From positions 1 to 64,000 of IMG/VR virus record IMGVR_UViG_3300021074_000002: a stretch of DNA of 64,000 bases, one strand, 5' to 3'. Below the pieces are notes generated by a model that was not told the origin of the DNA, did no database searches, and saw only the letters and a list, made by a program, of their open reading frames with translations. The position numbers and the translations under genes are program-made. Below are positions 2,873 to 30,382 of the stretch, piece after piece. Within the stretch, counting starts at the first letter, position 1. Every line of letters begins with the position of its first letter. The stretch is from a virus.

Positions 2873-2954
2873 TGTAGTAGTATTAGAGATATGTAAAATT
2901 AATTATTTATACCTTAAGTTTTTATATTTTAGAAAGATAAATGACATAATATAG

Positions 2955-5900: not shown

Positions 5901-8045
5901 AAAATCAGTATTGTACTTTTCAATAGTAGCTTTGATTTGCTTATTCAAGATCTTTGATTGATCTAACAATGGCTTTAAATCACCTTTGATCTGTAGTTGT
6001 CTGATAGCAGTAAATAATGTATTTAACTGTTCAGCTTTAGTTTGTTTATCTGAAGGTAGCACTTTCTTTTCAGAGAATCGCCTATACATAGCATTCAACT
6101 TCTCAATCAGTATATCTACCTCTTTGATCCCTGTTTTCTCTGATTCAAGTCCTACAGGAAGTAAATAGTTCTGTGAAATCTTTTTAACATCAACATCACC
6201 AATTACTATATCAGTTAGTTTTGGAAGAATATTTAATTTGGCATTTGCTTCACTGTAGTTAGCTTGAATAGGAATCATTCGTGTCTGACCAAAATCCTCA
6301 GACTTAATACCATATGCATTCTGAAGGATAAGTTTATATTGTGTCATTTGATTATTCCAGGCAGTTACTTTATACCAAGGAACATCTTCATATTTCTTAC
6401 CCAGATTCATAAACTTCCAATCCAAAATATGTGTTTTCCCAGATTGTTCAACTGCTAAAAAGTCTATTGTTCCAGCAACTCCACGAGTAGGATCATGTAC
6501 AATAACCTCTGATTTAAATCTAGTACCATCTTTGAATGATTTTAAACGTGCTTCGAGATTGTCTCGTAATATCTCATATTTATCTCTTTCGAAAGCTTCT
6601 TTAAAATTTTTGAATACAGCATCGTAATCACTATCATCCTCAATGGAGACTCTTAAATATCCATTAGTATCAACAAGTTTATGAAATGCAAACTCTAGAG
6701 CAGCATGACCAGCTGTTCCTTTCTCAGCTTTAAGATCATCAATTGCTTTTTGGAAATCACTCTTAGTTAGATCTTTATCTTTGAAACGTCTTTCATACCA
6801 ACCTTTAATTAGATCTGTTACTCTACGAGGAATTTTAATTTTTCCTATATAGTAACCATTATCGTCCTCATTAGGTTGATCTTCTTTTTTAATGATTGAA
6901 TTTGAAACAGTATCCAGTTTATCAAAAATCATAGTTTGAGCATCCTTCTGAAGAAAGACTTTATCACTTTCTTCTCTAATGTCTTCAGCTGTACCTATGT
7001 CTTTACCAGATAGGATATCCATAGCAGCTTGATCAAACCCACTAGTTATAAACTTTTCTTTAAACCAATCGATTATAGCTCTCCACCATCCACCCACCTT
7101 ACTTAATAGTTCAGGTCTTTCTGTTACTCCTTCAGATTTATTGATAATAATTTCTGCAAGAATTTTTGCTATGGCTTCTTCTTTAAGTTTATTTACATCA
7201 GGTTTACCATCTTTACCTCTATATAATGGATCTGTTCCATATACCTTATTTATATTATCGAGAAGTTTAAATCCATTAACCTCACTTAGTAATTTCTTAT
7301 ATAAAGCAGGATTAGTTTGTTTAATGATGGCTACAGCAAAGTGCATTGCTTCTTCAGGAAGAACACCAACTTCAGCTCCCTGTACTACTTGAATTAACTT
7401 CTGCATAATAAATGCAGCACCATTAGCATCTTGCTTTATACCATTTACACTAATCTGTTCCAGACTTTGAATATTTACACCAATACGTTTCAAAAAATCT
7501 TTTACTGCAGAGACTGTTTTAGTAGAAGCTCTTGAGCTTGATGTAGTCCCAGACTTTGAGAATAGCACACCTTGTTGATCTACTTCTTGAGGACGTATTT
7601 CTATAATCTTCCTATATGTATTATTAGTCTCCCTAATACTAATTATCTGAGGGAACCTATCAGCTAACTCTCTTATGATTTTAACATGAGGATTAAAAAT
7701 TGTATCCCTTACCTCAGGTCTGATCAACAAAGGAGATACAGTAGGACCAGTAGTTATAAACAATGTATCATTGAAACTATGTATTACTCCACTCAATAGA
7801 CCCTTTATACCTTCTGCTGAGAGTTGAGGATTTTCTTCTAATGCCACTGAGACATTATTAACAATTCTTGATTTATCAACTGTTAACCAATCCTTAATTT
7901 CAGTAAGATTAGGATAGTAAAAATCATCAGTTAGTCCTTTGACATTTTTACTATATCCTCTTACAAACCTTTCAGCCAGAGATTTGCCATATACATCAGC
8001 AATCTTTTTAAATCCAGGAGTATTTGTATTTATACAGCCCATCAT
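2955..8045 (-). CDS. Giant virion-associated protein with PD-(D/E)XK nuclease domain
   Basis: 1696 aa. A RecB/Cas4-like PD-(D/E)XK nuclease core is visible at about residues 440-575: H447 in GTAGHAALEF, D528 in AGTIDFLAVE, D542-W-K544 in HILDWKF, and a QMTQY helix at 566-570. Earlier, LPEEAMHFAVAII (EEAMH at 231-235) resembles a zincin HExxH helix with the first His replaced by Glu, so protease activity is doubtful. The middle third is Lys/Glu-rich and probably coiled coil. A hydrophobic segment near the C-terminus (VIFMSIMIGMVMALKA) could be a membrane segment. The ATG overlaps the stop of the 5107-aa gene by 4 bp (ATGA), so the two are translationally coupled. Family context puts such proteins with the crAss cargo that enters the cell with the DNA. 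A DNA-processing role after entry is inference. Confidence 0.75.
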   Translation of the reverse strand: MMGCINTNTPGFKKIADVYGKSLAERFVRGYSKNVKGLTDDFYYPNLTEIKDWLTVDKSRIVNNVSVALEENPQLSAEGIKGLLSGVIHSFNDTLFITTGPTVSPLLIRPEVRDTIFNPHVKIIRELADRFPQIISIRETNNTYRKIIEIRPQEVDQQGVLFSKSGTTSSSRASTKTVSAVKDFLKRIGVNIQSLEQISVNGIKQDANGAAFIMQKLIQVVQGAEVGVLPEEAMHFAVAIIKQTNPALYKKLLSEVNGFKLLDNINKVYGTDPLYRGKDGKPDVNKLKEEAIAKILAEIIINKSEGVTERPELLSKVGGWWRAIIDWFKEKFITSGFDQAAMDILSGKDIGTAEDIREESDKVFLQKDAQTMIFDKLDTVSNSIIKKEDQPNEDDNGYYIGKIKIPRRVTDLIKGWYERRFKDKDLTKSDFQKAIDDLKAEKGTAGHAALEFAFHKLVDTNGYLRVSIEDDSDYDAVFKNFKEAFERDKYEILRDNLEARLKSFKDGTRFKSEVIVHDPTRGVAGTIDFLAVEQSGKTHILDWKFMNLGKKYEDVPWYKVTAWNNQMTQYKLILQNAYGIKSEDFGQTRMIPIQANYSEANAKLNILPKLTDIVIGDVDVKKISQNYLLPVGLESEKTGIKEVDILIEKLNAMYRRFSEKKVLPSDKQTKAEQLNTLFTAIRQLQIKGDLKPLLDQSKILNKQIKATIEKYNTDFKGKDPLKFTEKEINDFAGELQTAQEAIQVYTDLDTGLASLFEEDTPENRALQQDLKDTVYAARLLEKKMEHVLNDYVSDIIAKSEGIDNLLSPEKIIKGITKLFSSTATLQLKSIELLYKKANKAFYYSGVDTLAESKELEELKKNYEVLAAKKGLNKKTFFDLIKKKDKNELIDEHKPEFYKTLRKKIQEKDSTWIKANIDVEAYREHLKVKLAEEIDRIEKRHRVGTAADEASTIKKEIANAEELYSISYDNSPGWLLNDQIKKFPKDIWISDEWKQLNIKGNEAAKDFYDYIIRKNNEYQDLGYINKLEARVFLPFVRKGLTEKLITGGQVRLGEQFFRDISIDEGDIGYGQIDPLTGKTVNVIPKYFTSDITGELSTDLFRTMAFYNEAAIRYKYLSQIEEQIKAIVAVEKTKKAIATSIFGKTDYNETTGELQTTPDNNENSKLVEDMMKAIIYGQRYITSETFDQLLFKMGSWGTTFNKKLGLKIFPEDLEGRQVSVNKIISQLNNTFQLSTLGLNLLSASSNLFGGNSHSMINAGTYFTKTDYIAAEGMIVINKFNGTNHKLMLGALEYFLPLTENYNREVAKRLSLNKLTAESLQDGLMYFMRQSDWNVQTSNFYAYLKNTIVQDGQVLNVREYLRTTDKYKDKYQVTSEQRSALKDEFEKDVNDLIDTQGVLKLATVVDDKFTIPGVDQKSQSVVELRRKVQQISKNALGNLSEDDLRTINMQIYGKSFMVFKNWIPRLVDVRMGNMKYNSASDAYEWGRMRMVFKVLSDDFLGSIGNLKNSLIANEKGVDYMRELFEKKKAEYKKDTGKTLNMTETQFMDLVRSNIKAQLIDVIFMSIMIGMVMALKAYAPPDDEDPAVKSQYRFMVRTFDKFKDELSYFYDPTSFLGLVSKGIFPSISLLDNMTKGTKNFMIENWAISTGNEKLEKSNQVIKYWMKVFPFTNQMIGYLPMFYPELAKDMGVKIQANYGIR

Positions 8046-11000
8046 AGTTTACATTTTAAATCTTCGATAAATTCTGATTGAGTATAATCATGTATAGGAA
8101 CACTTTCAAAATCTTGATTTAATTTTTCAAGGGTTCCTAATCCAAGAGCTTCTAATTTAGATAATTGCTCAGCAGTAAGACTGTTGTAGAATCCTTTTAT
8201 TGTGTCTTGTCCTTGTAAAGATACAGATTTTTCTTGTCCAGGTATATAGAAATGTTCAGGGTTTTCTTTGTTAATAAACAACGAGCCTGATGCCCTGGAC
8301 ATTCCTACATATAACAATGCATGTTTCTCAGTGGAGATCTGTTTACCGTTACTGTATAGTTTAGAACTATCATATCTTGGTAATGTAGATGCATCAAAGA
8401 ATACATTCTTTATAGTAGTACCTTGACTCTTGTGAATCGTTACAGCATAGCCATAATCAATACCTTTCTCTACAACCATCTCTGGGAAGTCTTTCTTGAT
8501 TTCAGCATGTCCTGATGTTTTATCTTGCAAATTAAGAGATTCCATACTTCCTGTTTCAGGATTAAAAATATAATCACCTCCTAAATTAGTTTCCATAAAA
8601 TATGCACCAACTGATTCAAGTTTATTATAGAATTGTGCCCAGGCAGCACCAGTCTTAGAACTTATTGCATATTTCTTTGCAGCAAGTAGATCTACCATCA
8701 TTCTACTAATGGTTGCGTTATTCTCATCGAAATCTGCTTGTGTCAATTCTTGAAAAGTTAACGCATCACTATTACTAAGTTGTAAATATCTAGAAGTTGC
8801 TTTCTCAGATACATTTACACCAGCTTTCTTTAGCATTCCTAACTTCTTAGATTTAGCAACAATATTATACTGCGAACCATTTTTGGTTACACTAGTAATA
8901 ATATATCTAATACTGTTAGCAATATTTTGATTCTCAATCTGTTTAGTGTTATATCCACCATATCCTACAATAGCAAGACCCTCTTTAGGATCACCCTCGA
9001 AACCTAAGGCTTTCTTAATCTTGTTATTAACAGCTTTAACTGAAGCATTCGTATAAGAGATTAACATTGTATCCTCTGGTTCTTCTTGTATTTTCTTAGC
9101 TAAAGCCCTATTAAATTCCATCTCATTAAGATATTGGATATCATCACTGCCTTCTACTACAGGAATTTTACCATTAGGGTTCTCTCTAATATATCCCAGG
9201 GCTTTTAACATTGTATCGTTTGAAGTTCTTTTTACCTCTGTTAACGTTACTTGTTTATTATCAGTGAATGCTTTTGATACAAGTTTCTTCTCTGGATTTG
9301 AAATATTTACTTCAGGAATCTGCATAATATCTCCCATGAAGATAATCTTCAAATCCATACTTTCTGCTACTTTCTTAATTCTATCATAATCTTTACCTGA
9401 TAACATAGATGACTCATCAATCACTATTACGTTATTACTCAAACCTAATCTATCTTTGAATTTTTTAGTAGCAATCGTTGTGTAACTCTGCTTGATAGGA
9501 TCATATTTCTCAGTAATAGAAGATTGTACAGTGAAAGGTAAGCTTCTACTACCAGTTTTGATAGTAGCAAAACCTAATTCTGCTACAGCAGCGTGAGTAG
9601 GAGCTAAATAAACAAAGTTATACCTACCTCCTAAATAATTCTGAAGATAACCAATCACTGAAGTCTTGCCTGTTCCAGCAGCTCCTTGTAATGTAATTAC
9701 TCTCTCATCTTGTGTAGTAGCAAAGTCTGACAACGCTTCCATGGCCTTTTCCTGGCTACCAGTTAACGTGAATTGTGTCTTGATAGTCTTGCCTTTATAT
9801 GAGAATGTTCCTTGATGATTTGTCTCAGGATTGTCTTTCTCTGCCCTATCATCAATAGATTCTTCCTCGTCTGATTTATACTCTGATCGATTATATAAAT
9901 CTTTCATATCTTGTCCAAGATCTGGTAGTTGCTGGAAAGGTTTATTATTCTGAGGATCGATGTTAGGATCTTTATTGAAAGCATCCATCAATTTCTGCTT
10001 GTCAACATTCTTACCCTTATATCCTTCGACATCAATAGCTTTCCCATCTAAAGTGTGAATAAAGTATTCTCTACCATAGTATCTATATACAGCATCACCA
10101 GCTATACCAGTCTCAACTGGCTCTGAAGGAATTTCTTCTTTCTTTTGAATAGGAACTTCATCTCTTACTTCATATTCCTTAGGAAGAATTATATTATCTG
10201 CAATACCTTCATATTCGTTAAGTTCTTTAAATAAATTTTTTATTTCAGATATACTATATCCAGCAAGAGAACTTCCTAGTTTTGTAACCAACAACTTTTT
10301 ATCAGGATGTTTATAAGCAAATTGATTCATTTCTTCTAATTCAGCTAATATTTCCTGAAGAGTGGATGATTTTTCAACATCCCAATGTTTCTTAGTAACT
10401 ACTGCATAAGACTGCCCTTGCAAACCTCTAGCCTGTCCCTGTATAGCTCCAAACTTTTGTTTAGCTAATAAAGCAGCTCCTTTACCATGAGTTTGTGGTC
10501 CTCCTTTCGAAGTACCTTCATTACTACCAAATACAAACACTTCATTAGATTTCAATGATGTGATGTTCTCTGGAGTATATTCTCTTTGACCAGACTGTTG
10601 TGGAGTAGGAGTAGCTACAGGTTCAGGTTTAGCAACAGATGTTGTATTATTGATTATAGCATTCTTAAATGCTACATAGACATCATTGTTAAACTTGGTT
10701 TTTAATTGATTATTATAAACGTCCCAAGCATCTACTATTTCTGCCTTTTTAGCATAGAGATGGATCTTTTTGTACTCTACTGCAAAAGAAACATAGGTAT
10801 CTTTTTGCAATGCATCATATCGTTCTTTAAATGATGCTATGATAGGAAGTTTAACACTATCATCCAGAAAATCTATAGGAAGTAACGCATTTGCTTTTTT
10901 ACTTTCTTTAGCCCAATCTAATAACTTATTCAACTTATCTTGAACTTCTTTATTATCTTCATACGTTTCAGAGATCTTACGTTCAATATCCAATTCGTAT

Positions 11001-14000
11001 GTAAGTTTGCTATTAACATTAGCAATTACAGCTTTATCAATAGCGTCACCAGTTTGACCTACTTTAGCTGTACCATTGTCAATGACAGATGCTCTATCAT
11101 CAGGATAGAATTCTGTTGTAAGATTACCATCACCTAGAAGATTAACCTGCTTGTAGATAAAAGAGCCTTCAGCATCAACAACAGGATTTCCTTGGAGATC
11201 TCTAAGCTTCTGATAGCCATAGTATTCTTTGATTGAAAGATCACCTTTGGCCTTCATCTGTCCAAACTCATATCCAGTGATAGTCCAATTATCTAAGAAG
11301 TCAATATAATTGTCATCTGAAATAGCTATCTTCCTTGGGATCTTGATAAAGTCATGCTTACTCTCTAGGAAGTTGTATTTTGGATTAATCAATATGATAC
11401 GTCTATCACGACTGAGTTTGTGATTTTCTTCTTTACGTTGTTGTTTTTCTGCTTCACTAATTCCTTTTGGTATCTTTGGTATTTTAGGAAGATTGTATGT
11501 GAAATAATTAGTTAAAAGATTACCATAATCATCCTCATCACTATGTTCTTCGAAATATTTTGGAACGAATATTGGAACAATATCATCATCTTTCCAATTA
11601 GCTCTCTGGAATACACCATTTGCAAATGCTTCCAATTCATCAGAAATATTTAATCTATCAATGATAGGTTTGACCTTTGCTGCATAATCTTCCAAAGGAA
11701 TGATGTTTTTGAAACTCATAGATGTTTGATATGTTCCTTGAAGAAGAGCATAATCAACTAAGTTGTTATATAACACAGGATCTATATCTCTCAACTCTCT
11801 CATGAAGTCAGTGTACATATCCTCATCATATGCTTCCTTGAGATTGACTTTTAATTGTACACCTTTAGCTCCATCAGCTCTTTCAGATGTTCTAGTTTCA
11901 AAATCTTGTAATATCTGAACATCAGGATATTTTAATTTAGCAGCTTCAATTTGATTAGCTATAGAGTTTGGTCCCACTGTAAGTTCGTAAATTTTATCAC
12001 GCAAATTAAGAGTGGGGTCCATTTGTATAATATAATCCAGGAATGAAGCTTTAACCTTGCTGGCTATTTTATCAAAACTATCAGCACTTATGTACTTCAT
12101 ATGTTCATAAGTCCTCATTACTTTCTTAGTAATCTCTTTGAAGCGATTTTCTTCTAGTTTAAGTATAGCTCCCATACTTGACATAGCATAGTCTAACAAT
12201 TCTTTTTGTTTACCTATGTGACTATATTTCATCATATTCTCTACATCTGAGAATATGTTTATCTCCTTTGCTATTTCTGTCTTTGTCTTCTTCCTTGAGA
12301 ATGAATCAGAGTTAGTAAACCTCGTAGTGTCATAGTTTGTGGCTTGAGTCATTTCAAAACTGAACTCAGCCATTTTAGCATACTTCAAGAATTCAGTAAG
12401 GATCACACGCTGTTCAGCATTTTCTATATCATTAGCTACAAAACCTTTAGCAGCAAACTTTTCAATATTACTCTGAAGACTATTTATAGCAACAGTTGCA
12501 TTCTCTAATGCTTTCTTACTAGTTGGATAGTTAAGTTTAAGAAAATCATCCTGTACACTACTATTAAATAAAAATCTAGATCCTTTACTATCAAGATGTG
12601 CCAGATAGTTGAGAATTACTGGCTGATTCATAAATAATACAGTATTCTTACCACAACCAATTCTCTCTAAGAACATAAATGTACCAAGTGCAAGATCAGA
12701 ACTAATAATCTTCATGATGTATGGATCTTTAGCTACATCAACAAATGCTGTAGCATATCCAGAGAGTCTATCAGAAATGTATTGATCTCTTCCATCTTGT
12801 GTCTTTGTTCCAGACATAGATATATAACCATTAATTGTATTGTGAGGAAGCAACACCTTTCCATCACCTAATACAACTCTATCTGATTCATCTAAAGCTT
12901 TGAATCTTTCTGGATCAATAAATGCTCTAAACTTCTGTGTAAGACTTTGACCAGTAATATTTACAGCAGCAATACCAATCCACTTCTTAGCCATAACAAA
13001 TGAGTTCCTTAAAGAAGTCATATAGTTTCTGTTAAGCAGTCTATTCTTGATTCCAGACTCAGATTGATTTCTCCATGTATCTAAATCAGCTGCATCCTGT
13101 TTTAAACCAGCATCATCAACAGGAGCCATAAGTCTATCAAAGTTTTCAGGAAGAGTTATTAATTTCTCCAGAGAATCATAATATCCATTCTCTAAAGATT
13201 TTCTATACATACTTTCAACAAACTCTTCTCGTAGTGCTGCATCAAGTAGTTCTTCTGTTAACTCTTTCCTTTTTCCTAATAATCGATTAATCTGTGCAGT
13301 GATATATTCAGATGGTTTAAGATCTTGCTCATTAGCTTGATTGATGATTTCATTGATCATCCTTTCATGATTTTCATAAAAATCATAATCTTCATCTTCC
13401 AGAAGATCTATATTGTCTTCAATGTTAATAGTTTCAGATGATTCAAGCAATTTAAAGATATCCAACAATGTACCTCTAAACTCATCATATTTCATTATCT
13501 TTTTGATATCAAATAGAATAGTACGAGAAAATACATCACTAAAGAATTTCTTAGTTTCTTCTTCAGATCCTTGATATTCAACAAGTTTTACATCTCCCCT
13601 CTCATCAACATAGACTGATTTGAGATAGGTGTTCATTTTGTCAATATCGAAGTCAGATCCAGCCTTTGCTACAATTTCTGAAGGAACTACAATAGTATCT
13701 CCCATAGATTTATCTAAGAACCCTTTAACCCTAAACACTTCAATAGATGACATGGATTGTGTAGGAATACGAAATCCTATACCTGTTAAAATCTTCTGTC
13801 CTTCTGGTGTATTCAGATAATTAAGAATAGATTCATCTGTAGGAAATCTCTTTTTGTTAAAACTATCTTTAAACCAGTGAGGTAACAAGACTTCGCAATA
13901 ACGATCTTCTCTGGTATAAAATTTAAGAGTATCACTAGTAAGTCTTACATTCTTTTTATCTGCAGCAGACATTGCTTCGTATACTTCCCTGGTAACTTTT

Positions 14001-17000
14001 TCATAACCTGTTTTAGTCTTTTTAACAAGTCCTCTTCCTTCTTTAGCATTCTCCCAGAGAGTAACAGGTACTTGAACTTTAGGACCTCCACTCGTCTTTA
14101 AAGAAATTAGATTTTTGTTGATCATTGAATATAGAATATCTCTGATCTGTCTATATGCAGGAGAAGCTTCAAAAGGCATTGCAAATTGATCATTCTTATC
14201 TAAACGAATAGTATCTTTTACATTTTCAGATACTTTCCTTCTTAACATTTCATATTCAAGAGATTCTGAAATAGCTTTAGGATCTTCAAGTCTAAATTGT
14301 CCTTTACCTTCATCAATGATTCCTAATTTTTTGAGTAATCTTTGATATGCATGTTCATGTATTTTATTAAGAAAATCTACATTACGATCATATTCAGCTT
14401 GAGCTTCAGGAGAACTGGCAACACCATTGTTGAAAAAATCAAGACTGGCTATTTTAGTAATCTGAGATCCTCTGGTTTGTTCATGCGAATGTTCATAACT
14501 ATTTTCCACTTGAATACCATAAGCTTTCCAAGGTACTTGGATGATTGTATCATCTGCAAACTCTTCTTCATTAAATTGTCCATTCTTATAAAGACTATGT
14601 ACATTCTCAGCTCCTACCTTTCTGGCACTTGCAAATACAACATAGTCAATACTCTCTTTCCACATCTTTGTATAAAGTTTCTCAAGATTGGTTCCCTGGA
14701 CCATCTTAAAGTAAACAGGCATCTGAGACATTTTATCTAAGACTAGATTGATCTGTGTTTCATTGGCTTTTACACCTGATACAATAGGTTTCATTACCTC
14801 AGTGACATAATTAGGTTCAGGTCTTTTTAAGAGCTGTATATCGTGAGCTTTTAACGCTTCACTGATATATTTATATCCTGGTATATTCTGTCTTGTGTAA
14901 GCCATTTGCCACTGATGCCATATTTCAGCTTTAGTAGTCCATTGACCATTCTTAGTCTTAACTTCTCTATATGTATTATCCATTATAATAGAAAAACCAT
15001 CAGTCTCATCATAAGCTTTCTGATAAAACTCATGCTTTAACTTTATATCTGCCACTGTAACAGTAGTAGCATAATTCTTATGTAAATGATAACCTAATTC
15101 TCCAGGAGTATTATAATCAGAAGCTTGAAGATGAATTCCATCTACAGTGTTGTATTCTTGATTTAAAAATGTATTAAACTCATCAGTATTGAATGTTGTA
15201 CGTCTTGGGGATAAGAATGATTTGATACGTTTTGTCTCATCTAATCTACCATCAATAACATCAAACTGATAAGGATCACCAAACATGATCTTATGAAGTT
15301 CAATGTTGTTGATTATATAATTTGTATTTACAAACATTAGAATTTGATTCAATTCTTCTTGAGATAGTTTGAGTTTATTAATCTTATTATCAAGTCCTTG
15401 AAAGTTTGTAGTCTCTAAATTTTTATAACTGTATGTATCACTTTTATTGTCAAATGTAATCTGACCAGTTTTGATTAACAACTCTTTAGTCTCACTAACT
15501 GTATCATTAATAAACTGATCAACAGCACTATTTATATCTTTGATGTGTTCATCAACGTATGCTTCAATTTTAACTTGTGTAGAATTATCATGGATTAAAG
15601 CATTGATACCTTCAAGTGTTTTAGGAGAATAGTTACCAAGTATATCCTTGAAGAAACGAAGTTGTTTAGCCTTATCACCAACAGCTTTTAAAGACTCCCT
15701 ATTATCATAGTCAAGAGCCAGAGCAATCTCATCTGTTAGATATCCTCTAAAAGTAGAATGAATACTTTTTGAAGCTTTTTTATTCTGTATCTGTGAGAAG
15801 AGAATAGAATTACCAAGATTGATCATCCATTCCGTAGATGTATCAGCAGGAACAAGAACGTAATAGTTACCATTTAAGTTCTGGTTTATTTCCATACTTA
15901 TTCTATCTCCCAGACCAACTTTAGCTATACTAGTTCCTTTATTTTTATCAACAATTTTTCTACCCTGTATATATGATATATTAAGGTCTTTGATCTGAAC
16001 ACCTTTTTCATTAAAGAACAATCCTCCTTTTTTCAGAACAATGCTATTCCTTGAGAATACATCATTAAGTTCAGGTTTTGATTCAATGAGTTTATCACGA
16101 CTACCTGATTCATTGAAGTCATTAGCAAATACAGAAGCTACATTGTTCTCAGCATAATTTTGACTAACTGTACCATCAACATTAATGTGTGTGTTTTCCT
16201 GATGAGGATCATTGATATTAACCCATATGTTAGCTAAGATATTAAGAGGACCATTGATTCCTAAAATTTTACCCTTGATAGATCCTATCTCTGGAACTTT
16301 TTGAATATATTCTCTAATCCGTGAAGTAGCTATTTCAAAACTTTTTTTCTGATCAGCATTCATTCTAAAGTAGTCCTGCAACGTAAGTCCTATACCAATA
16401 GCATTGAGAAAGTCAATCATCTCGTTAGCTGTTTTTACAGGAAAACTTAATCTGATAGCAGCAGCTTTTGCTTCTTTCTCTGTCTTATAATTAAAGACAT
16501 CGCCAGCATAATCTACTACATCAAAAGTTCCATTCGCAAGAGGATTAATTTTTGCATCAAGTTTTTTAACCTTGTATACAGCTTTTACTCTTGTAAGTAT
16601 GGAAGTAGGTTCTGCAGCAATACTCTTCATCATTTCAAACCATCGCTGTTGGATTTGCTTAGAAGCACGAAATTGATCAGCACGAGCTGTATATACATCA
16701 CCATCACTAACAAATTGTATAAGAGCCTCAGGATGTTGCTTAGTAAAAGTTTGATAGAAATTAACAAATAGTCTCCAATCTTCTGCTTTAAAATCCTGAA
16801 AAGGAATAGTACCACTCTTTAAATCTCCACCTAAACGTGTAAATAATCTGATATAATTTGAATCTTTTCTTGCCAGTGCTTCTAATTTTTGGGTAACTCG
16901 TTTTACACTTGAAGTGTTTGAAAATCTATCTAACAGTGTTGCAAACACTTTACTAAAATTATTTATAAGATAACCATCTGCTATACTTGATCTTAGCAGT

Positions 17001-20000
17001 TTAGGAAGATTCATCGGTTTATCACCTTCCTGATTTAATGCTTCAGCTTGAGGAAGCGTAGCACTCACAATTCTAATAGCATAGGGAGAATAGGTTTTCC
17101 AATCTGTACTAAATGGTTCTGGAGCATAACTTCTATTCTCTGTACCACCATCGTTTATATCTGTAAAGTTTTCCTCATTAAGATTTATTCCTAATGTACG
17201 AATGATATCTTTAGTTCTAAGAAAGATCTGTTTGAATCTAGCAGGAGTAAGTTCCTCATAATATATTTCATCATCAATGTATTGTTCCTTAATTACATCA
17301 TATATTTGCTGACCAGTAACTTTTTCTGGATCAAACAATGCTTTCTTATTGTTACTGCCAAAGATAGCTTGGATAGCACGTATGGTCATATCCTGGACAT
17401 ACTGAGCTACAGCAGTATCTGACATATTTTCTACTTTACTATATTCAGCAGTTTCTAATTTTGTTTTCTCAGATATAACTCTATTCTTAAATTCACCTGT
17501 ATTAATTGCTTCAAACAGACTGGTCTTTAATGAAGGGTCTTTACCAAAGGTTTTAAAAAAATCTATTATAGCTCTAAAGAATCTAAGAACTCTTTCTCCC
17601 AAAGATCTTGCAGGAAGTTTACCAAGTTGAAACTCAGCAAAGTCATCCATAATTCTTTCTTTGATCATGAAATCACTAACCTGAGGATCATCTTTTTTAT
17701 AAGTCTTACCACTCTGTCTATCTACAAAAGATCCTGCACTGTTTCTAAATTCATCAATCAAAGCTTGTCGTTCCTCAGGAGTAAGAAAAGCTTTCCAAAT
17801 ACCTTCTCCTACTTCATGATATTCAGTTCCTCTGATTGATTTTTTATAGAACTTTATGACACCATTTTCAAATACACCCCAGGCTTCCTCATCATCAACG
17901 GTATTGATGATATTGTCCAAGACTTGATATGGCATATTAGGAAGATATGCTGCCATCCATTGCTTAAATAGTTCAAGTTCTTTATCTGTTAACCTTTGTT
18001 TACCAGCTTCAAGGGTTCCTACTTTTCTAAATTCACTATCAGGTTTACTATCTTTATCTCTTGTTACTTTTCCTGTAATCTTAGATGTTTTCGTAGGTGT
18101 AAGATGGGGAAGTGCTTTAAATATCTCTTCAGATAGATACTTTGCAGTTGATAATCCTTCAACATCGGGAAGAATAGTTATAATCTCTTCAGGATCAACT
18201 TTACCATTAGGCATCACTGATGCAAGTAATTGATTAATTTGAGTAGGTGTATATTCATCATCTACAAAATCTTTAAGAACCTTAAGTAAGGCAACCTCAG
18301 TTGATACAATAGGTTTTTCAGAAATTTTCTGTTTGACTTCTTCTTTAACTTCTTCTTTAACTTCTGGTTGAGAAAATGTAGCTAAATATGCATTGATCTT
18401 TTTTGTAATTTCTGCTATATTACTTGTAATCTTTAATTCCTTTTTTACATTAACTTCTGTAACAGTACCATCTTTCATAGTTGCCAACAATGCTTTAACA
18501 CCTCTTGTAGATATTACTGTTCCTAAACTATTTATAAATGTTTCAACAAGTGCAAGATCAATTGTACTTTCTACTTTTTGTTCTGGTTGTTTTACTTTTT
18601 CTTCTGGTTTAGCTGCTTTCTCTTTTTGTAATATAATTAAATTGGCCTCAATATAGTTCTTCATGAACTGTTTAACAAGCTTCTTAATAATAACATCTCT
18701 TTCAACTTGTGGTTTAGTCATATCTGACGCTCCAGATACATCTTCACCTTCTTTGTCTAATGTTGTAATAGCTATTCTTACAGTAGCAGGAGTATCAATA
18801 AGTTCTTTAAGTTTATCATTATCAATAATCTCAACTTCAATTTTTCCATTTTCAACAGTTCCTTTAAAATCCAAAGACTTATTATTCGCAAGAGGATAAT
18901 TATTTACTGAATTATCAAGTATGTAATTTCCAATTCTAACAGTTGTAGATTTAACATCCTTCTTAACAACCTTGACAGGAATATCAAAATCAACCATTGT
19001 AGCATATTTCTGCTCAAATGAATAAGGTACTAATGTTGTAGGTTTGGCAACACTAGTTGTAAGAGGAGTATTATCTATATTCCTTACAGTACCATCAGGA
19101 TTCTTAGATGACAATAGATAAATTTGATAATTAAACCATATTCTATCACTTTTTAAAATACCATTCTCAACATAATACTCTTTAAAAGAATTATTAAATT
19201 CATCTTTTAATGTTTTACCATTGACATTGTGATATGCTTTACCAATGAGATCAAGTATTGCATCTTTGTTTTCAGCTAGTTTTGTTAAGGCAAATGGTTT
19301 CTTTCCTATAGAAATAGTCATATCAGATGTATTGACAAAGAATTGATTATTTGAATCATTCTTGGCAACTGTACTGAAAAACAACACATTCTTTAGAAAA
19401 TTTGTATATTCTGTGTTAAACTTTATTTTTGTACCAGCTTTACTTTGACTAATAATATCATTAGTAAACTTTTGAATTACTTCAAAAATAGCCAGAGCTT
19501 GGTTTGATGAAAACTTATTATTGTTTAAAAACTGTAGAGTATCTCCATCCTGCAACACAGGTCTTCCATCTGAAAAAGGAATGTTCTGTCCTTGATGGTT
19601 AACTTTTCCTTCAGATGAAATAGCAATCAATATAACATTTGTTGCTATGTTATCTTCATCAACTAAAATTCCACCTACATGATTCTTTTCATATATAGTT
19701 TTACCAGCAACTAGTGTTATATTTTGTTTAGGAATTCCTCTTGATATAACAAATTTCTCAATTTTATATTGATCATTATAATTAAAAATGTCTACTCGTT
19801 TAGCAGCCCAAGCTTTAGCATTCTCTTCAAACTGTGCTTCCTGTCCAGTTCTTGCTCTATTGCCACCTTTAGAAGTTATTAATGAAGTGCTAGGCATTGT
19901 TTGAAAGATGACTCTATCTAAAATGCTATCAGTACGTGGACCTATTGGTGTATCAGTTAATTTGTCACCATTTATATTGACAAAGTAATCCTTAGATTTA

Positions 20001-23000
20001 CCCTCGCTATCTTTTTCTGTAATAACAAATACCTGTGCTATAAAACCTTTTTCTAAATTTCTTACAATTGCTTTAAATTCAGCTGTAGCAGCTTCTGCAT
20101 CAGTGGCCTTATATGATAATTGAGTAAGTCCTTTAAGTCCTAGTGCTTCTTCATTATTAGGAGTAACAAGAATAACTCCCATATTATTTCTATTCTTGAA
20201 CTTCTTTGCATTATTCAGAAAGACTCTACTTCTGGTTACATGAGGTTGTGATTTAGTAGGATCTTCATATTGTTCAGATTCTGTTATGCCTGATTTATGA
20301 AAGATCCATACATCCTTACGTAGACCTTCTTCTCCAGTTGATTCATTGGTAGGATCTCCTGCATTGATACCTCCAGAAGCAATATTCAAGTTTTTCAGTT
20401 CATTATCAATGCTCTCCTTATCCTTCATTAATTTCTCTTGCTCTGTCTGAATCTTTGCAAAGCCTTTCAGTTTATCTAAAGAAATATCACGAATGATTCC
20501 ATCCTGATCTTCTACCTTTACAGTACCATCAGGATTGAGTTTTATGATCTTTACTTTAGATGCAGCAGTTGCTTTTTCATTTATATCATTAGCAGCATCC
20601 TGAGCATCTTCTTTAGTAGGATAAACTAATGCTACTCCTGTAATAGGATTAGTAACTTTCCATTGTTGTCCTGACTTAACAGGTTTAACCTCTTTAGGTT
20701 TTTCTGCTTCATACTCTCTATCAAGTGATAACTCTTCATCTTCTCCTGCTCTATTTTTAAACACATGTTTAATAGGAACAACTTCTGCTTCTTCTTCTGG
20801 TACTTCTTGAGCCATCTTTAAAGCCTGCTCAAAATATTTGTCAAGTCCTTCACTATTAGATAGTTTATCATATATATCAGAAGCAGTTTCTCTCTGATAA
20901 TTAAGTCTATTAATATCCTTACCATAGATCATTAAATCAAGAGCCTTGTCAGTAGAAATAACTGGAGGTTGTGTAGCATCTTGATTATTCAGTTCAAAAT
21001 TTAATATCTTAGTGAATGACTCTACATCATGATCTTTTTCTAAAGCAAGACCAATTCGCTGAGCCATACTACGAAATGCTTCACTTTTTTTGATAAGAAC
21101 TTTTTTGTCTTTATAGATAGTAGTTAAAGCAATTGCTTCATCTAATTGTTTAGCTTGCTCTTCATAATCTTTGATTAAGTCTTTCAAAGATTCAGCGTTC
21201 ATAACTTTAGAAAGAATCTCTGTATTAAGTAAAGGATCTACTTTAATTAATTCTTGACCAATTGATTCAATTCTACTTTTATTATTTGGAGCAACACTTG
21301 CATAATATGCAAGATCTGTTTTCCAGGAATTAAATGTATTGTATTTTTGATTTTCAATCCATGCAAGTGAACCACTCTCAGCTTTCACATCATAATTAAA
21401 TGGATTTATAAATGTAGCATTCAAACTATCAACAGTCTTTTTAATATTATTCGCTTCATTTATAAGTGAGTCTACATAACTATCTACACTTTTCTTACTT
21501 GACTGATTAAAATCCATTCCAAAGGTCTGTTCAAAATCTTCTTTCTTAAGATCTTTGAGCATGTTAAGTTGATCTATTGTTATATCATGCATTCCTGAAG
21601 GAATACGTGAGGTTACATAACTGAAAAATAGATCTTGTTTTAAATTCTTATACTTATAGATATCTCCAGTTTTGACAGCATCTTCCATATCTTTTGTTAT
21701 CCCTACTGTAGTCAGAGTATCTGTATATTTATCACCAAGAGTTCCTGTAAGACCATGTTGATTTAACATATTTACAGTGGCATCAAGTCTTTTACTTGGA
21801 CTTTTACCTGCCATACGATCTATGACACTCATTCCAGCACCAGTTATCATAGCTGTAATAGCACCAATGAACATATTTTGAATACCTTCTGTAGTACCAA
21901 ATTGATCAGCTAGTCCAGTTAATGTAGAATTAACTGTTTCATTTACTGAGTCCCAATTTGTTCTATTGTTTGGATCTTTTAAATCTTTATATTTTCTTGT
22001 GTAATAATTATAAGTTCCACGTTCAGCAGCATACTGTCCACCTTCTTCATATACTCCTTCAGAAAACATAGTGGGTAGGGCAGGCTTAACTGTATCCCAC
22101 AACTTACCACCTACTGTAGTAGCTACTTTTTTCTCAAATGTATCTATTGAATCTTTTACAAGTCCTATCTTACCAGCATCAGCTATCTTCTTACTTAGTG
22201 TACCAGTAATAGTTTTAGGAGATACTTTATTAAATGCCCTAAATAGATTATCAAACTGAATAGCATTAGATACAGTGAGTAGAGCCATGTTAATACCAAA
22301 CCTGGTATTCATACCATCTGTAGCATAATTTTCTATTTCCTGAAGTTCTTCAGGAGTCATATCCTCGCCAGGATGTTCAAGTTGATACTGTTGAACTAAG
22401 TTCTCTTTAATTTGACGATATCCATCTCTAGCTTCTACACCAGCTTCTGTTCTGGCTGATCCATATATATTTAATCCCCAACGTAATGCACTACCTACTT
22501 TTACAACAGCAGCCATTTCTCCAAGTCTTTGAACAGTAAGTAGTTGTTGTGTTCCTTTGGCAAGATTTGCTCCTACCTCAAGAGCTTTCTCAACATCATT
22601 GGTTCCTGTAAAGAGTTTGTTTAAATACAAAGAAGCTTTTCCTACTTGAGAACTAATTGTAGCAGGAGTTCCTATTCCTGATGTCAATGCTCCAATAATT
22701 GCATCCTGAGCTAAAGCTCCACCAATCGCACCAATTGTAAAACCTAGATTCTTAATAACCATATCTCCCCAGAAATTAGCTGATCCTTCTGTAAAAGGTA
22801 CAGCTGATTTAAAAGGATGTAGTTTTTCATATCTGGTATAATAGTTAGGAAACTTATTCTCAATATTTTTTAACCAGTTATCAATAGATCCTTCAAATCC
22901 ATCAGGATCTCCTGATAGTTCTGAGAATTTACCATTCTGAATTGCTGATATAGTATTTGGGATTGTAGCAAAACTCTGAGCAAATGTACCAATTCCAGTA

Positions 23001-23365
23001 GCTGCCATTTTAACAACACCATTCCCTAGTTTAGAAGTCCAACTTTGTTGTAGTCCATAAATATTTTCAAGATCTACACCTCTTTGATATATTGGATATT
23101 TTTGATTAGCAAGAAGTTCAGACCTTGGAATTACTTCCATAGGAGAATTAAACGTAGGAGCTTTTTGTGGAGTGTTTGTATTTGACATCTCATCAATAGA
23201 CATACCTTGTCTACTAAGAGTGTCTGTTTGAGTAGACATGCTACCTTCTACTGGATTAAGATTAAGATTAACTTCCAATGTATCAGGTGATCCTAAATAA
23301 GGTGTTTCAGGAGCAGCTCCACGATTCGAAACATTATTTATAAGTTCATTGTCAAAGATTGGCAT
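8042..23365 (-). CDS. 5107-aa polyprotein: crAss virion RNA polymerase + macro-like domain + SF1 helicase
   Basis: A single 15.3-kb open frame. The N-terminal part has hydrophobic segments near residues 210-245 and 505-525, as in ejected virion proteins. A zincin-like helix with the second His lost (YHEVGEGIW, HEVGE at 1850-1854) follows. AGSDFDIDKMNTYL places the DFDID metal-binding signature of crAss-like virion RNA polymerases (the phi14:2 gp66 family, single-chain with two double-psi barrels) at 3238-3242. FVFGSNEG (from 4277) through GLQGQSYAV is a macro-like domain found in phage proteins. The C-terminus is an SF1B helicase of the Dda/RecD2 type: Walker A GAAGTGKT 4561-4568, Walker B VIVIDESSML (DE 4650-4651), GDIMQIPEV from 4678, LTEVKRTS, and late motifs YAVTIHKSQGT and LLYVGMSRA. 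All helicase motifs look intact. It lies 2 bp after the 871-aa gene. Early transcription by the packaged enzyme is family knowledge. Whether the chain is cleaved is not visible. Confidence 0.9.
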   Translation of the reverse strand: MPIFDNELINNVSNRGAAPETPYLGSPDTLEVNLNLNPVEGSMSTQTDTLSRQGMSIDEMSNTNTPQKAPTFNSPMEVIPRSELLANQKYPIYQRGVDLENIYGLQQSWTSKLGNGVVKMAATGIGTFAQSFATIPNTISAIQNGKFSELSGDPDGFEGSIDNWLKNIENKFPNYYTRYEKLHPFKSAVPFTEGSANFWGDMVIKNLGFTIGAIGGALAQDAIIGALTSGIGTPATISSQVGKASLYLNKLFTGTNDVEKALEVGANLAKGTQQLLTVQRLGEMAAVVKVGSALRWGLNIYGSARTEAGVEARDGYRQIKENLVQQYQLEHPGEDMTPEELQEIENYATDGMNTRFGINMALLTVSNAIQFDNLFRAFNKVSPKTITGTLSKKIADAGKIGLVKDSIDTFEKKVATTVGGKLWDTVKPALPTMFSEGVYEEGGQYAAERGTYNYYTRKYKDLKDPNNRTNWDSVNETVNSTLTGLADQFGTTEGIQNMFIGAITAMITGAGMSVIDRMAGKSPSKRLDATVNMLNQHGLTGTLGDKYTDTLTTVGITKDMEDAVKTGDIYKYKNLKQDLFFSYVTSRIPSGMHDITIDQLNMLKDLKKEDFEQTFGMDFNQSSKKSVDSYVDSLINEANNIKKTVDSLNATFINPFNYDVKAESGSLAWIENQKYNTFNSWKTDLAYYASVAPNNKSRIESIGQELIKVDPLLNTEILSKVMNAESLKDLIKDYEEQAKQLDEAIALTTIYKDKKVLIKKSEAFRSMAQRIGLALEKDHDVESFTKILNFELNNQDATQPPVISTDKALDLMIYGKDINRLNYQRETASDIYDKLSNSEGLDKYFEQALKMAQEVPEEEAEVVPIKHVFKNRAGEDEELSLDREYEAEKPKEVKPVKSGQQWKVTNPITGVALVYPTKEDAQDAANDINEKATAASKVKIIKLNPDGTVKVEDQDGIIRDISLDKLKGFAKIQTEQEKLMKDKESIDNELKNLNIASGGINAGDPTNESTGEEGLRKDVWIFHKSGITESEQYEDPTKSQPHVTRSRVFLNNAKKFKNRNNMGVILVTPNNEEALGLKGLTQLSYKATDAEAATAEFKAIVRNLEKGFIAQVFVITEKDSEGKSKDYFVNINGDKLTDTPIGPRTDSILDRVIFQTMPSTSLITSKGGNRARTGQEAQFEENAKAWAAKRVDIFNYNDQYKIEKFVISRGIPKQNITLVAGKTIYEKNHVGGILVDEDNIATNVILIAISSEGKVNHQGQNIPFSDGRPVLQDGDTLQFLNNNKFSSNQALAIFEVIQKFTNDIISQSKAGTKIKFNTEYTNFLKNVLFFSTVAKNDSNNQFFVNTSDMTISIGKKPFALTKLAENKDAILDLIGKAYHNVNGKTLKDEFNNSFKEYYVENGILKSDRIWFNYQIYLLSSKNPDGTVRNIDNTPLTTSVAKPTTLVPYSFEQKYATMVDFDIPVKVVKKDVKSTTVRIGNYILDNSVNNYPLANNKSLDFKGTVENGKIEVEIIDNDKLKELIDTPATVRIAITTLDKEGEDVSGASDMTKPQVERDVIIKKLVKQFMKNYIEANLIILQKEKAAKPEEKVKQPEQKVESTIDLALVETFINSLGTVISTRGVKALLATMKDGTVTEVNVKKELKITSNIAEITKKINAYLATFSQPEVKEEVKEEVKQKISEKPIVSTEVALLKVLKDFVDDEYTPTQINQLLASVMPNGKVDPEEIITILPDVEGLSTAKYLSEEIFKALPHLTPTKTSKITGKVTRDKDSKPDSEFRKVGTLEAGKQRLTDKELELFKQWMAAYLPNMPYQVLDNIINTVDDEEAWGVFENGVIKFYKKSIRGTEYHEVGEGIWKAFLTPEERQALIDEFRNSAGSFVDRQSGKTYKKDDPQVSDFMIKERIMDDFAEFQLGKLPARSLGERVLRFFRAIIDFFKTFGKDPSLKTSLFEAINTGEFKNRVISEKTKLETAEYSKVENMSDTAVAQYVQDMTIRAIQAIFGSNNKKALFDPEKVTGQQIYDVIKEQYIDDEIYYEELTPARFKQIFLRTKDIIRTLGINLNEENFTDINDGGTENRSYAPEPFSTDWKTYSPYAIRIVSATLPQAEALNQEGDKPMNLPKLLRSSIADGYLINNFSKVFATLLDRFSNTSSVKRVTQKLEALARKDSNYIRLFTRLGGDLKSGTIPFQDFKAEDWRLFVNFYQTFTKQHPEALIQFVSDGDVYTARADQFRASKQIQQRWFEMMKSIAAEPTSILTRVKAVYKVKKLDAKINPLANGTFDVVDYAGDVFNYKTEKEAKAAAIRLSFPVKTANEMIDFLNAIGIGLTLQDYFRMNADQKKSFEIATSRIREYIQKVPEIGSIKGKILGINGPLNILANIWVNINDPHQENTHINVDGTVSQNYAENNVASVFANDFNESGSRDKLIESKPELNDVFSRNSIVLKKGGLFFNEKGVQIKDLNISYIQGRKIVDKNKGTSIAKVGLGDRISMEINQNLNGNYYVLVPADTSTEWMINLGNSILFSQIQNKKASKSIHSTFRGYLTDEIALALDYDNRESLKAVGDKAKQLRFFKDILGNYSPKTLEGINALIHDNSTQVKIEAYVDEHIKDINSAVDQFINDTVSETKELLIKTGQITFDNKSDTYSYKNLETTNFQGLDNKINKLKLSQEELNQILMFVNTNYIINNIELHKIMFGDPYQFDVIDGRLDETKRIKSFLSPRRTTFNTDEFNTFLNQEYNTVDGIHLQASDYNTPGELGYHLHKNYATTVTVADIKLKHEFYQKAYDETDGFSIIMDNTYREVKTKNGQWTTKAEIWHQWQMAYTRQNIPGYKYISEALKAHDIQLLKRPEPNYVTEVMKPIVSGVKANETQINLVLDKMSQMPVYFKMVQGTNLEKLYTKMWKESIDYVVFASARKVGAENVHSLYKNGQFNEEEFADDTIIQVPWKAYGIQVENSYEHSHEQTRGSQITKIASLDFFNNGVASSPEAQAEYDRNVDFLNKIHEHAYQRLLKKLGIIDEGKGQFRLEDPKAISESLEYEMLRRKVSENVKDTIRLDKNDQFAMPFEASPAYRQIRDILYSMINKNLISLKTSGGPKVQVPVTLWENAKEGRGLVKKTKTGYEKVTREVYEAMSAADKKNVRLTSDTLKFYTREDRYCEVLLPHWFKDSFNKKRFPTDESILNYLNTPEGQKILTGIGFRIPTQSMSSIEVFRVKGFLDKSMGDTIVVPSEIVAKAGSDFDIDKMNTYLKSVYVDERGDVKLVEYQGSEEETKKFFSDVFSRTILFDIKKIMKYDEFRGTLLDIFKLLESSETINIEDNIDLLEDEDYDFYENHERMINEIINQANEQDLKPSEYITAQINRLLGKRKELTEELLDAALREEFVESMYRKSLENGYYDSLEKLITLPENFDRLMAPVDDAGLKQDAADLDTWRNQSESGIKNRLLNRNYMTSLRNSFVMAKKWIGIAAVNITGQSLTQKFRAFIDPERFKALDESDRVVLGDGKVLLPHNTINGYISMSGTKTQDGRDQYISDRLSGYATAFVDVAKDPYIMKIISSDLALGTFMFLERIGCGKNTVLFMNQPVILNYLAHLDSKGSRFLFNSSVQDDFLKLNYPTSKKALENATVAINSLQSNIEKFAAKGFVANDIENAEQRVILTEFLKYAKMAEFSFEMTQATNYDTTRFTNSDSFSRKKTKTEIAKEINIFSDVENMMKYSHIGKQKELLDYAMSSMGAILKLEENRFKEITKKVMRTYEHMKYISADSFDKIASKVKASFLDYIIQMDPTLNLRDKIYELTVGPNSIANQIEAAKLKYPDVQILQDFETRTSERADGAKGVQLKVNLKEAYDEDMYTDFMRELRDIDPVLYNNLVDYALLQGTYQTSMSFKNIIPLEDYAAKVKPIIDRLNISDELEAFANGVFQRANWKDDDIVPIFVPKYFEEHSDEDDYGNLLTNYFTYNLPKIPKIPKGISEAEKQQRKEENHKLSRDRRIILINPKYNFLESKHDFIKIPRKIAISDDNYIDFLDNWTITGYEFGQMKAKGDLSIKEYYGYQKLRDLQGNPVVDAEGSFIYKQVNLLGDGNLTTEFYPDDRASVIDNGTAKVGQTGDAIDKAVIANVNSKLTYELDIERKISETYEDNKEVQDKLNKLLDWAKESKKANALLPIDFLDDSVKLPIIASFKERYDALQKDTYVSFAVEYKKIHLYAKKAEIVDAWDVYNNQLKTKFNNDVYVAFKNAIINNTTSVAKPEPVATPTPQQSGQREYTPENITSLKSNEVFVFGSNEGTSKGGPQTHGKGAALLAKQKFGAIQGQARGLQGQSYAVVTKKHWDVEKSSTLQEILAELEEMNQFAYKHPDKKLLVTKLGSSLAGYSISEIKNLFKELNEYEGIADNIILPKEYEVRDEVPIQKKEEIPSEPVETGIAGDAVYRYYGREYFIHTLDGKAIDVEGYKGKNVDKQKLMDAFNKDPNIDPQNNKPFQQLPDLGQDMKDLYNRSEYKSDEEESIDDRAEKDNPETNHQGTFSYKGKTIKTQFTLTGSQEKAMEALSDFATTQDERVITLQGAAGTGKTSVIGYLQNYLGGRYNFVYLAPTHAAVAELGFATIKTGSRSLPFTVQSSITEKYDPIKQSYTTIATKKFKDRLGLSNNVIVIDESSMLSGKDYDRIKKVAESMDLKIIFMGDIMQIPEVNISNPEKKLVSKAFTDNKQVTLTEVKRTSNDTMLKALGYIRENPNGKIPVVEGSDDIQYLNEMEFNRALAKKIQEEPEDTMLISYTNASVKAVNNKIKKALGFEGDPKEGLAIVGYGGYNTKQIENQNIANSIRYIITSVTKNGSQYNIVAKSKKLGMLKKAGVNVSEKATSRYLQLSNSDALTFQELTQADFDENNATISRMMVDLLAAKKYAISSKTGAAWAQFYNKLESVGAYFMETNLGGDYIFNPETGSMESLNLQDKTSGHAEIKKDFPEMVVEKGIDYGYAVTIHKSQGTTIKNVFFDASTLPRYDSSKLYSNGKQISTEKHALLYVGMSRASGSLFINKENPEHFYIPGQEKSVSLQGQDTIKGFYNSLTAEQLSKLEALGLGTLEKLNQDFESVPIHDYTQSEFIEDLKCKL

Positions 23366-29748: not shown

Positions 29749-30382
29749 TGTGTTTTAGTATTAAATTACAAAAATGTTTTAGTTCAGACATTGATAGATT
29801 ACTTTTCATAATATTGATTATAACACAAAGTAACTGTACATTATCTTTTGTATATCCTAAAGAAGGATTAATTTTATCGACACTTATATTAGTTTGTATT
29901 CTTCCTTTAGATCTAATGTATGTCATTTTTTCTTTTGAAATTGCACATTCTCCATTTTGATTATTGAACATATCTATTAAAAATTCCACAGTTAGCTCAA
30001 ATTTTAAATTTTTAGTTCGAGATCTTGATTTGATTCCATTTAATATATCTTTTATATAAAGTTGTAAATTTTCACTATCACTATATCTATTATATCTAAG
30101 AGGGTCTTTCATTACACACTTCTTACATCTATGTTGAAATCCTGTACTAGAATCATTTCTTTTATGGAAATTTTCAATAGTTAAAGGAAGTGTAATGTTA
30201 CATGTAGAACATGTCCAAAGATTATCATTTAAATATTTTTGTTCTTTTAAAACGTTTATATTTCTTATTTTAGCAGCACATATTTTACATTTATTAAAAT
30301 AACCATCTTTAATACTTGGATTCTTCCAAAAACTATCAATTGATAAATTTTTCTTACAAAGTTTACAAGTTTTAAAATTCAT
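29741..30382 (-). CDS. HNH homing endonuclease with zinc-ribbon N-terminus
   Basis: 213 aa. Two CxxC pairs (CKLCKKN...CKICAAK and CSTCNIT...CKKCVMK) form N-terminal zinc ribbons typical of phage HNH proteins. The nuclease core is at the C-terminal half: GECAISKEKMTY, then SVDKINPSLGYTKDNVQLLC, where the Asp-Lys-Ile-Asn segment stands in the usual place of DRID and Asn closes the HNH finger. The usual Cys/His before the first strand is partly degenerate, so activity is uncertain. It sits between two cargo genes, starts 1 bp after the 922-aa gene ends and overlaps the next start by 8 bp, as expected for a free-standing mobile endonuclease gene. Confidence 0.8.
   Translation of the reverse strand: MNFKTCKLCKKNLSIDSFWKNPSIKDGYFNKCKICAAKIRNINVLKEQKYLNDNLWTCSTCNITLPLTIENFHKRNDSSTGFQHRCKKCVMKDPLRYNRYSDSENLQLYIKDILNGIKSRSRTKNLKFELTVEFLIDMFNNQNGECAISKEKMTYIRSKGRIQTNISVDKINPSLGYTKDNVQLLCVIINIMKSNLSMSELKHFCNLILKHND

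Follow-up and report, generated by a model that had tools for sequence, protein, structure and literature searches.

The window analyzed here, the whole stretch of 64 kb taken from the 66-kb IMG/VR virus record IMGVR_UViG_3300021074_000002, contains a single unbroken frame at 8042-23365 on the minus strand that begins with ATG and encodes a protein of 5107 amino acids (aa). The major capsid protein (MCP), TerL, portal and tail proteins of the window match PHROG head-and-packaging families, and together they present the structural module of the Crassvirales (MCP, TerL, portal, muzzle/tail). TerL is closest to that of Leptolyngbya phage Lbo-JY46 (41%), followed by those of Epsilon crAss phages. 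The 5107-aa protein as a whole is best explained, with a probability of about 0.75, as a fused cargo protein of a crAss-like phage that serves as one carriage in a train of ejected polypeptides. This train may be considered in terms of three parts: A, the N-terminal half that resembles gp67 of phage phi14:2; B, the polymerase; and C, a protein that resembles phi14:2 gp65. The features of the chain and of the C protein that follows it are listed below.

8042-23365, minus strand: putative fused cargo chain of 5107 aa, consisting of A, B, a C-terminal payload and a lone terminal cysteine
17477-23365, minus strand: A part, residues ~1-1963, cysteine-free; residues 98-510 match phi14:2 gp67 (E 1e-6)
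17477-17998, minus strand: zincin-like domain at the end of A, residues ~1790-1963
17804-17818, minus strand: HEVGE, residues 1850-1854, a degenerate form of the HExxH of relatives
11054-17476, minus strand: B part, predicted virion RNA polymerase, residues ~1964-4104, lower boundary approximate
13640-13654, minus strand: catalytic DFDID, residues 3238-3242, in an invariant GSDFDIDK context
10169-10573, minus strand: payload domain 1, A1S_2505 family, residues 4265-4399
8261-9775, minus strand: payload domain 2, Dda-like SF1B helicase, residues 4531-5035, cysteine-free
8051-8053, minus strand: lone C-terminal cysteine, residue 5105 of 5107 (..EDLKCKL)
2955-8045, minus strand: C, the next cargo protein, gp65-like, 1696 aa, with a start codon that overlaps the stop of AB
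8034-8036, minus strand: sole cysteine of C, residue 4 (MMGCINTN), facing Cys 5105

An earlier note on this DNA had described a single 15.3-kb open frame with DFDID at residues 3238-3242, FVFGSN at 4277 and a helicase beginning at 4561. The frame of 5107 codons and the positions of all three motifs were recovered as described, the last being the Walker A sequence GAAGTGKT; the strand had not been given. A frame or assembly error that joins separate genes was rejected as an origin of the chain since the same order of A1S_2505 domain and helicase occurs in an independent contig (L150, one 5027-aa frame) and in the deposited genome of cr50_1 (Cohcovirus hiberniae, NC_055868; 4774 aa). The fusion is not unique to the window, with counterexamples in cr50_1, cr118_1, L036, L148, L150 and others, and A+B chains of ~3,600-5,000 aa are the rule in its close relatives from IMG/VR. 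Nor is the chain a record in size, as an annotated A+B frame of 5443 aa is present in cr7_1 (TAG-recoded).

Polymerase core

The DFDID region aligns to phi14:2 gp66 (PDB: 6vr4) in a phmmer search with an E-value of 5.8e-18 and the GSDFDIDK segments in register. A tblastn search matched 103 phage records (E 1e-16), the rows listed being crAss-like phages, and GSDFDIDK, the DxDxD catalytic loop, is kept across 40 diverse alignment rows. A predicted structure lacking double-psi barrels around DFDID had been named beforehand as a refutation. The AlphaFold2 model of residues 2600-3799 (predicted local distance difference test, pLDDT = 85.9; predicted template modeling score, pTM = 0.81) was searched with Foldseek and returned 6vr4 as its sole strong match in the PDB (E 3.8e-29, TMq 0.65). 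The fold with two double-psi barrels is recognized from this match of the whole model, the barrels not being delimited individually. Thus, sequence homology and the predicted fold both agree with the earlier assignment of B as a single-chain RNA polymerase of the gp66 type. Homologous virion polymerases are packaged and transcribe early in other phages (PMC10172136, PMC7886860), and mass spectrometry has identified the homologous large proteins gp47, gp49 and gp50 in crAss001 virions (PMC10172136). By homology, part B is predicted to be located in the virion and ejected with the DNA.

Cysteine depletion of the cargo

The chain contains three cysteines in 5107 aa, at residues 3157, 3571 and 5105, and the C protein one in 1696. 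Three further genes on the same strand encode presumed cargo proteins.

23368-25983, minus strand: presumed cargo protein, 871 aa, 0 cysteines, in the position of crAss001 gp46
26074-29748, minus strand: presumed cargo protein, 1224 aa, 0 cysteines, no PHROG match
30384-33152, minus strand: presumed cargo protein, 922 aa, 0 cysteines, no PHROG match

Many other proteins of the window have a cysteine content of 1-5%. Small cysteine-rich endonuclease-like genes lie among the structural and cargo genes at 29741-30382, 33149-33808 and 42095-42601.

Across 113 non-redundant chains, internal cysteines occur at a frequency of 0.0003 per residue while 107 of the chains have a cysteine within the last eight residues. 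The constraint extends to the helicase. When fused to the polymerase (n=14), the helicase domain contains 0-1 cysteines versus 1-11 in standalone homologs (n=50; p 1e-8). The captured helicase therefore obeys the cysteine constraint of the cargo, which is evidence at the level of sequence that it travels with it.

Depletion of this kind is not restricted to crAss-like phages. The N4 virion RNA polymerase (vRNAP; 3500 aa), N4 gp51 and gp52, T7 gp15 and gp16, and P22 gp7, gp16 and gp20 are all cysteine-free, and T7 gp14 has a single cysteine at residue 2. The absence of cysteine from N4-like vRNAPs has been reported before and was explained by passage through the tail and the oxidizing periplasm (PMC3715699, PMC3915230). 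Facing pairs of terminal cysteines, unlike in the crAss-like cargo, were not seen in the ejection proteins of N4, T7 and P22.

Lone cysteines at gene boundaries

The few cysteines that remain follow a rule. Where two neighboring cargo proteins are encoded by separate genes, the upstream protein ends and the downstream protein begins with a lone cysteine; where they are fused, both cysteines are gone. At the boundary of B and C, cysteines were found on both sides at 97 of 98 loci, the remaining locus having a mis-called start, and 82 of the 98 C proteins contain exactly one cysteine. At the boundary of A and B, 76 loci are fused and lack the cysteine while 19 are split and have an N-terminal cysteine on B, with no exceptions. 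The state of this boundary changes six times on the tree, and five of five independent pairs agree with the rule. The A protein ends with a cysteine, within 16 residues of its terminus, in all 18 splits that could be evaluated. The outer ends of the series behave differently: none of 84 fused AB chains begins with a cysteine, and a C-terminal cysteine was found in 0 of 130 C proteins when the last eight residues were counted and in 2 of 87 from another set when the last nine were counted. Control open reading frames (ORFs) from the same loci carry an N-terminal cysteine in 19 of 175 cases and a C-terminal cysteine in 22 of 175, the latter count still including several split A proteins; a general bias of these phages toward terminal cysteines was ruled out by these controls.

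Four gene arrangements were found, namely A/B/C, AB/C, A/BC and ABC, where a slash denotes a gene boundary. The window is of the AB/C type, with Cys 5105 of AB and Cys 4 of C and no other cysteine near any terminus. In phi14:2, where all three parts are separate, there are four cysteines in 5398 aa: residue 1797 of 1797 in gp67, residues 3 and 2179 of 2180 in gp66, and residue 3 in gp65. The corresponding cysteines of crAss001 are residue 2339 of 2341 in gp47, residues 5, 1334 and 2404 of 2412 in gp50, and residue 5 in gp49. The rule also holds in p-crAssphage and cr127_1 (both A/BC) and in cr4_1 and cr7_1 (both AB/C, TAG-recoded). In crAss002, A fits the rule and the start of BC is uncertain.

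Several loci serve as natural experiments. Where C is split again, the extra piece is tipped with cysteine at both ends, as in L167 (421 aa, only Cys 3 and 420), L030 (700 aa, only Cys 4 and 699) and L153 (534 aa, Cys 3, 366 and 534). Where A is split, in L098, a piece ending in ..NCI is followed by one of 1281 aa with only Cys 3 and 1281, and then by a BC protein starting with MSSC. At the other extreme, the fully fused ABC chain of L121 has no cysteine in 5005 aa. L152, which belongs to the same clade of fused chains as the window, has a GIY-YIG endonuclease gene between A (..EKQCS) and B (MSC..). In crAss001, gp47 is on the opposite strand from gp49 and gp50, and the cysteine pair is kept. 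A nucleotide-level cause arising from overlapping start and stop codons was ruled out by such opposite-strand pairs and by the intervening endonuclease genes in L152, L167 and L030. Small cysteine-rich genes lie exactly between train genes at L152:471-1136, L034:18891-19556, L167:15337-16029 and L030:17123-17908; those of L152 and L034 resemble GIY-YIG homing endonucleases.

Three phages that were inspected once the rule had already been formulated conform to it. Lbo-JY46 (L278) encodes a protein of 1552 aa whose only cysteine is residue 1552 and one of 2748 aa whose only cysteine is residue 4. In phi17:2 (L281), the only cysteines are residue 1957 in gp39, residues 4 and 516 in gp38, and residue 3 in gp36. 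In csAssE-Sib, a protein ending in ..KEC is followed by one that begins with MGVKC and ends with ..LECR, and then by one that begins with MTSTC. Lbo-JY46 and phi17:2 have cysteine-tipped trains, and their large cargo proteins gave no match to DxDxD. The overlapping neighbors WOZ57322 and WOZ57323 of csAssE-Sib (L282/L283) look like one protein broken by a frameshift or mis-annotation, with an N-terminal cysteine in the first only. Another side observation concerns the C-termini of many polymerase chains, among them those of L008, L018, L020, L029, L134 and L155, which have in common a segment of ~35 aa (~DGKEYxISDINxxLLExIGYxPxEIGKILKSIC) that resembles an exchangeable coupling end.

Payload slot

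Between the end of the polymerase (~residue 4104) and the last residues of the chain is a slot whose content varies among relatives. It is empty in L023 and elsewhere contains NADAR (L013, L122, L123, L188), cpYpsA/SLOG (L082, L122), an AlkB-like 2-oxoglutarate oxygenase (L020, L147), RNase H (L068, L076, L082), DUF7831 (L048, L054, L187) or, below the Pfam cut-off, a DprA-like domain (L068). In the window the first occupant is the segment with FVFGSN, previously described as macro-like. By profile it belongs to a known phage family, NCBIfam A1S_2505_Nterm (NF049995; score 100.5 bits, cut-off 45), and it gave no match to the Pfam macro family. A sequence search of the segment against the PDB gave no meaningful match, and the fold search of the payload was dominated by the helicase.

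On the tree of 109 polymerase cores, the distribution of A1S_2505 requires nine changes. The window and L076 share 59% identity in this domain although their polymerases belong to opposite main halves of the tree, and horizontal exchange is therefore favored. A second variable site may be seen in cr112_1 (L041:2090-2506), where the polymerase protein has an A1S_2505 domain close to its N-terminus that is absent from the crAss001 gp50 homolog.

Disparate enzymatic domains are exchanged between relatives in the manner of polyvalent proteins, which are injected multi-domain effectors (PMC5512222); for the crAss-like chains the location in the virion is assigned by homology. For Macro and NADAR proteins that are packaged in virions, and for SLOG combinations, a role in countering NAD-derived signals of the host has been proposed (PMC9503650). 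With this precedent in mind, the payload may be an anti-defense or DNA-repair effector that acts against host NAD/ADP-ribose signaling or against DNA/RNA damage during genome entry, a proposal with roughly even odds that is compatible with the coupled train. The inventory of the slot, which runs from NADAR, cpYpsA/SLOG and DprA-like domains to A1S_2505, AlkB-like, RNase H and helicase domains, favors it, while the lack of a conserved partner does not. Handling of NAD or ADP-ribose by the payload is plausible given NADAR and SLOG domains in the same slot of relatives; an ADP-ribose role for the A1S_2505 domain itself is a guess.

Zincin-like domain

A zincin-like domain is present at the A/B junction in 103 of 126 complete polymerase ORFs. 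In the window the HExxH zinc motif of zincin metallopeptidases is absent from it and HEVGE is found instead. Most members of the window's clade have HExxE; HExxH is found in L013-L016, L028 and distant relatives (HEAFH). Since zincins have been proposed to process polyvalent proteins (PMC5512222), the position of the domain raises the prospect that the chain is a polyprotein and that its zincin separates A, B and payload from one another by cleavage. This is considered unlikely. The HExxE motif makes catalysis doubtful in the window's clade, the domain is kept at the end of A even in genomes that encode A and B separately, and phi14:2 gp67 has no HExxH.

Fused helicase

The C-terminal enzyme matches PHROG 325 (Dda-like; E 2.8e-61) with motifs I, II, III, V and VI aligned and intact, and its model matches the DSH9 and T4 Dda folds (E ~1e-19). 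By motifs and fold it is a complete SF1B helicase, as the earlier note had stated, and of the Dda/RecD2 type. When used as a single-sequence query against viral contigs, the helicase payload found no match; an alignment-based query did. The order polymerase, A1S_2505 and helicase occurs in cr50_1 and L150 besides the window, and a polymerase-helicase fusion occurs in cr118_1, L036, L148, L151, L092, L094, L162 and others. In L038/L039 (6472-17259), the polymerase region is spread over several frames that overlap, and a helicase ORF of 1186 aa with the C-terminus ..DPCNK comes after it; this is probably a frame-disrupted fused chain.

A survey of relatives, proposed in the earlier note, places a helicase on the polymerase chain in 15 of 109 polymerase lineages. 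This distribution amounts to 12 changes on the tree of polymerase cores, 11 of which are forced by well-supported branches. Thus, while the motifs are complete, the fusion recurs and the two enzymes would be delivered together, the proposal of that note that the helicase opens promoters or unwinds DNA for first transcription is quite improbable: 94 of 109 lineages do without it, at least 11 gains or losses suggest that it is not needed for transcription, the slot is more often empty or filled by unrelated enzymes, the pattern does not suit an essential transcription factor, and N4 vRNAP, which needs unwound promoters, reportedly relies on host gyrase (PMC12633501).

Comparison with other ejected proteins

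Among the closest known parallels is the gp67/gp66/gp65 set of phi14:2 (Steigviridae), annotated from virion proteomics. It has homologous A and B proteins by sequence, and B also by predicted fold, and the A-B-C logic is common to it and the window; unlike the window, it is encoded by three separate genes and has neither helicase nor A1S_2505 payload. The 4774-aa protein of cr50_1 has the same order of zincin-like domain, DFDID polymerase, A1S_2505, SF1 helicase and C-terminal cysteine. It is ~22% identical to the window in the polymerase core, its HEAFH is intact, and its annotation as 'DNA helicase' misses the polymerase. A 4946-aa protein of cr118_1 (Besingivirus coli, NC_055872) that is annotated as 'exonuclease V' combines zincin-like domain, polymerase and C-terminal helicase in one chain; it differs from the window in having no A1S_2505 domain.

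Other parallels are N4 vRNAP and the polyvalent proteins, which are likewise giant injected multi-domain chains with a polymerase, a zincin-type domain and varied effectors (PMC5512222, PMC12633501), although the N4 polymerase is T7-like and not of the double-barrel type. P23-45 gp96 presents a double-barrel polymerase in a virion protein of ~5000 aa, as in the window, but is fused to the tape measure of a long-tailed phage (PMC10770324). Fused vRNAPs in crAss-like phages have been noted earlier (PMC10770324), and the annotation of p-crAssphage gp44 describes it as a fusion. Known in kind before were the polymerase, its giant fusion and the zincin-like domain, as well as cysteine-free ejected polymerases in N4-like phages. 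The helicase-A1S_2505 fusion is present in deposited genomes but is unremarked there. In the literature that could be searched, which did not cover Drobysheva 2021 or Yutin 2018, no description was found of terminal cysteines that face each other, of a payload slot as such, or of tail-to-head disulfide concatenation of ejected proteins.

Proposed model for ejection of the cargo

Lone cysteines were found on both sides of a boundary, were absent from the outer ends and were lost on fusion, a pattern that a coupled train would leave. It is considered probable that crAss-like cargo is ejected as one unbroken train in which giant polypeptides are joined head to tail through disulfides at their lone terminal cysteines, with fusion and cysteine pair being interchangeable and other cysteines purged. 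Neighboring carriages would be coupled in one of two ways: gene fusion would provide a peptide bond, or each facing end would contribute a lone cysteine, most likely to a disulfide. Since facing cysteines occur only where the chain is interrupted and become dispensable when a peptide bond is present, the joining of carriages is the simplest reading. Oxidized thiols in the particle are credible as crAss001 virions contain other disulfides (PMC10172136). The crAss001 cargo protein gp45 is thought to be ejected in the N-to-C direction (PMC10172136); A, B and C would similarly leave the virion N-to-C as a single thread through the tail. Passage through the tail and envelope in an unfolded state may be the reason why internal cysteines have been purged. 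Once in the cytoplasm, which is reducing, the disulfide would open and free the carriages. The A1S_2505 and helicase payload would ride into the cell by being on this chain, and may act in early infection.

Some observations weigh against this model. The disulfide itself is inferred from sequence, and since assembly takes place in a reducing cytoplasm, oxidation would have to come late. Intestiviridae chains have more internal cysteines, as does cr7_1 when the TAG-recoded chain is read, and the cysteine of the A protein in L188 is 15 residues from its end. Two proteins have a lone cysteine without an obvious facing partner: p-crAssphage gp47 (L273, BK010471), with only Cys 856 of 857, and crAss002 gp30 (L274, NC_055828), with only Cys 550 of 557. 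These lone-cysteine proteins of the Intestiviridae are another presumed cargo protein.

The terminal cysteines could also dock to a third partner. They would then be separate docking or packaging tags for a protein such as the portal, the C1/C2 cargo or a scaffold, and would not be paired with each other. Docking does exist, as Bayfield et al. resolved the cargo protein gp45 bound to the portal and tail (PMC10172136), and the unpartnered cysteines of p-crAssphage gp47 and crAss002 gp30 would be accommodated. A tag, however, need not sit only at the upstream C-terminus and the downstream N-terminus, nor be missing from the outer ends, and it need not vanish on fusion and return on both sides of every new split. 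Separate tags are thus a distinctly unlikely explanation when compared to the coupling of carriages.

Implications

Short-tailed phages have to move megadaltons of folded protein across two membranes by way of a tail only 3-5 nm wide, and how they do so in the correct order is a long-range question to which the present pattern is relevant. If true, a cysteine-coupled train would account for the ordered exit of the polymerase and its partners and for their staying together, as well as for the fluid gene boundaries of the cargo block. Cysteine-free chains with a cysteine at the tip also provide a sequence signature for finding ejected cargo of unrecognized function, for example in Lbo-JY46 and phi17:2. 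With respect to the payload slot, its contents amount to a natural list of enzymes whose delivery alongside the genome is worthwhile for phages of Bacteroidota.

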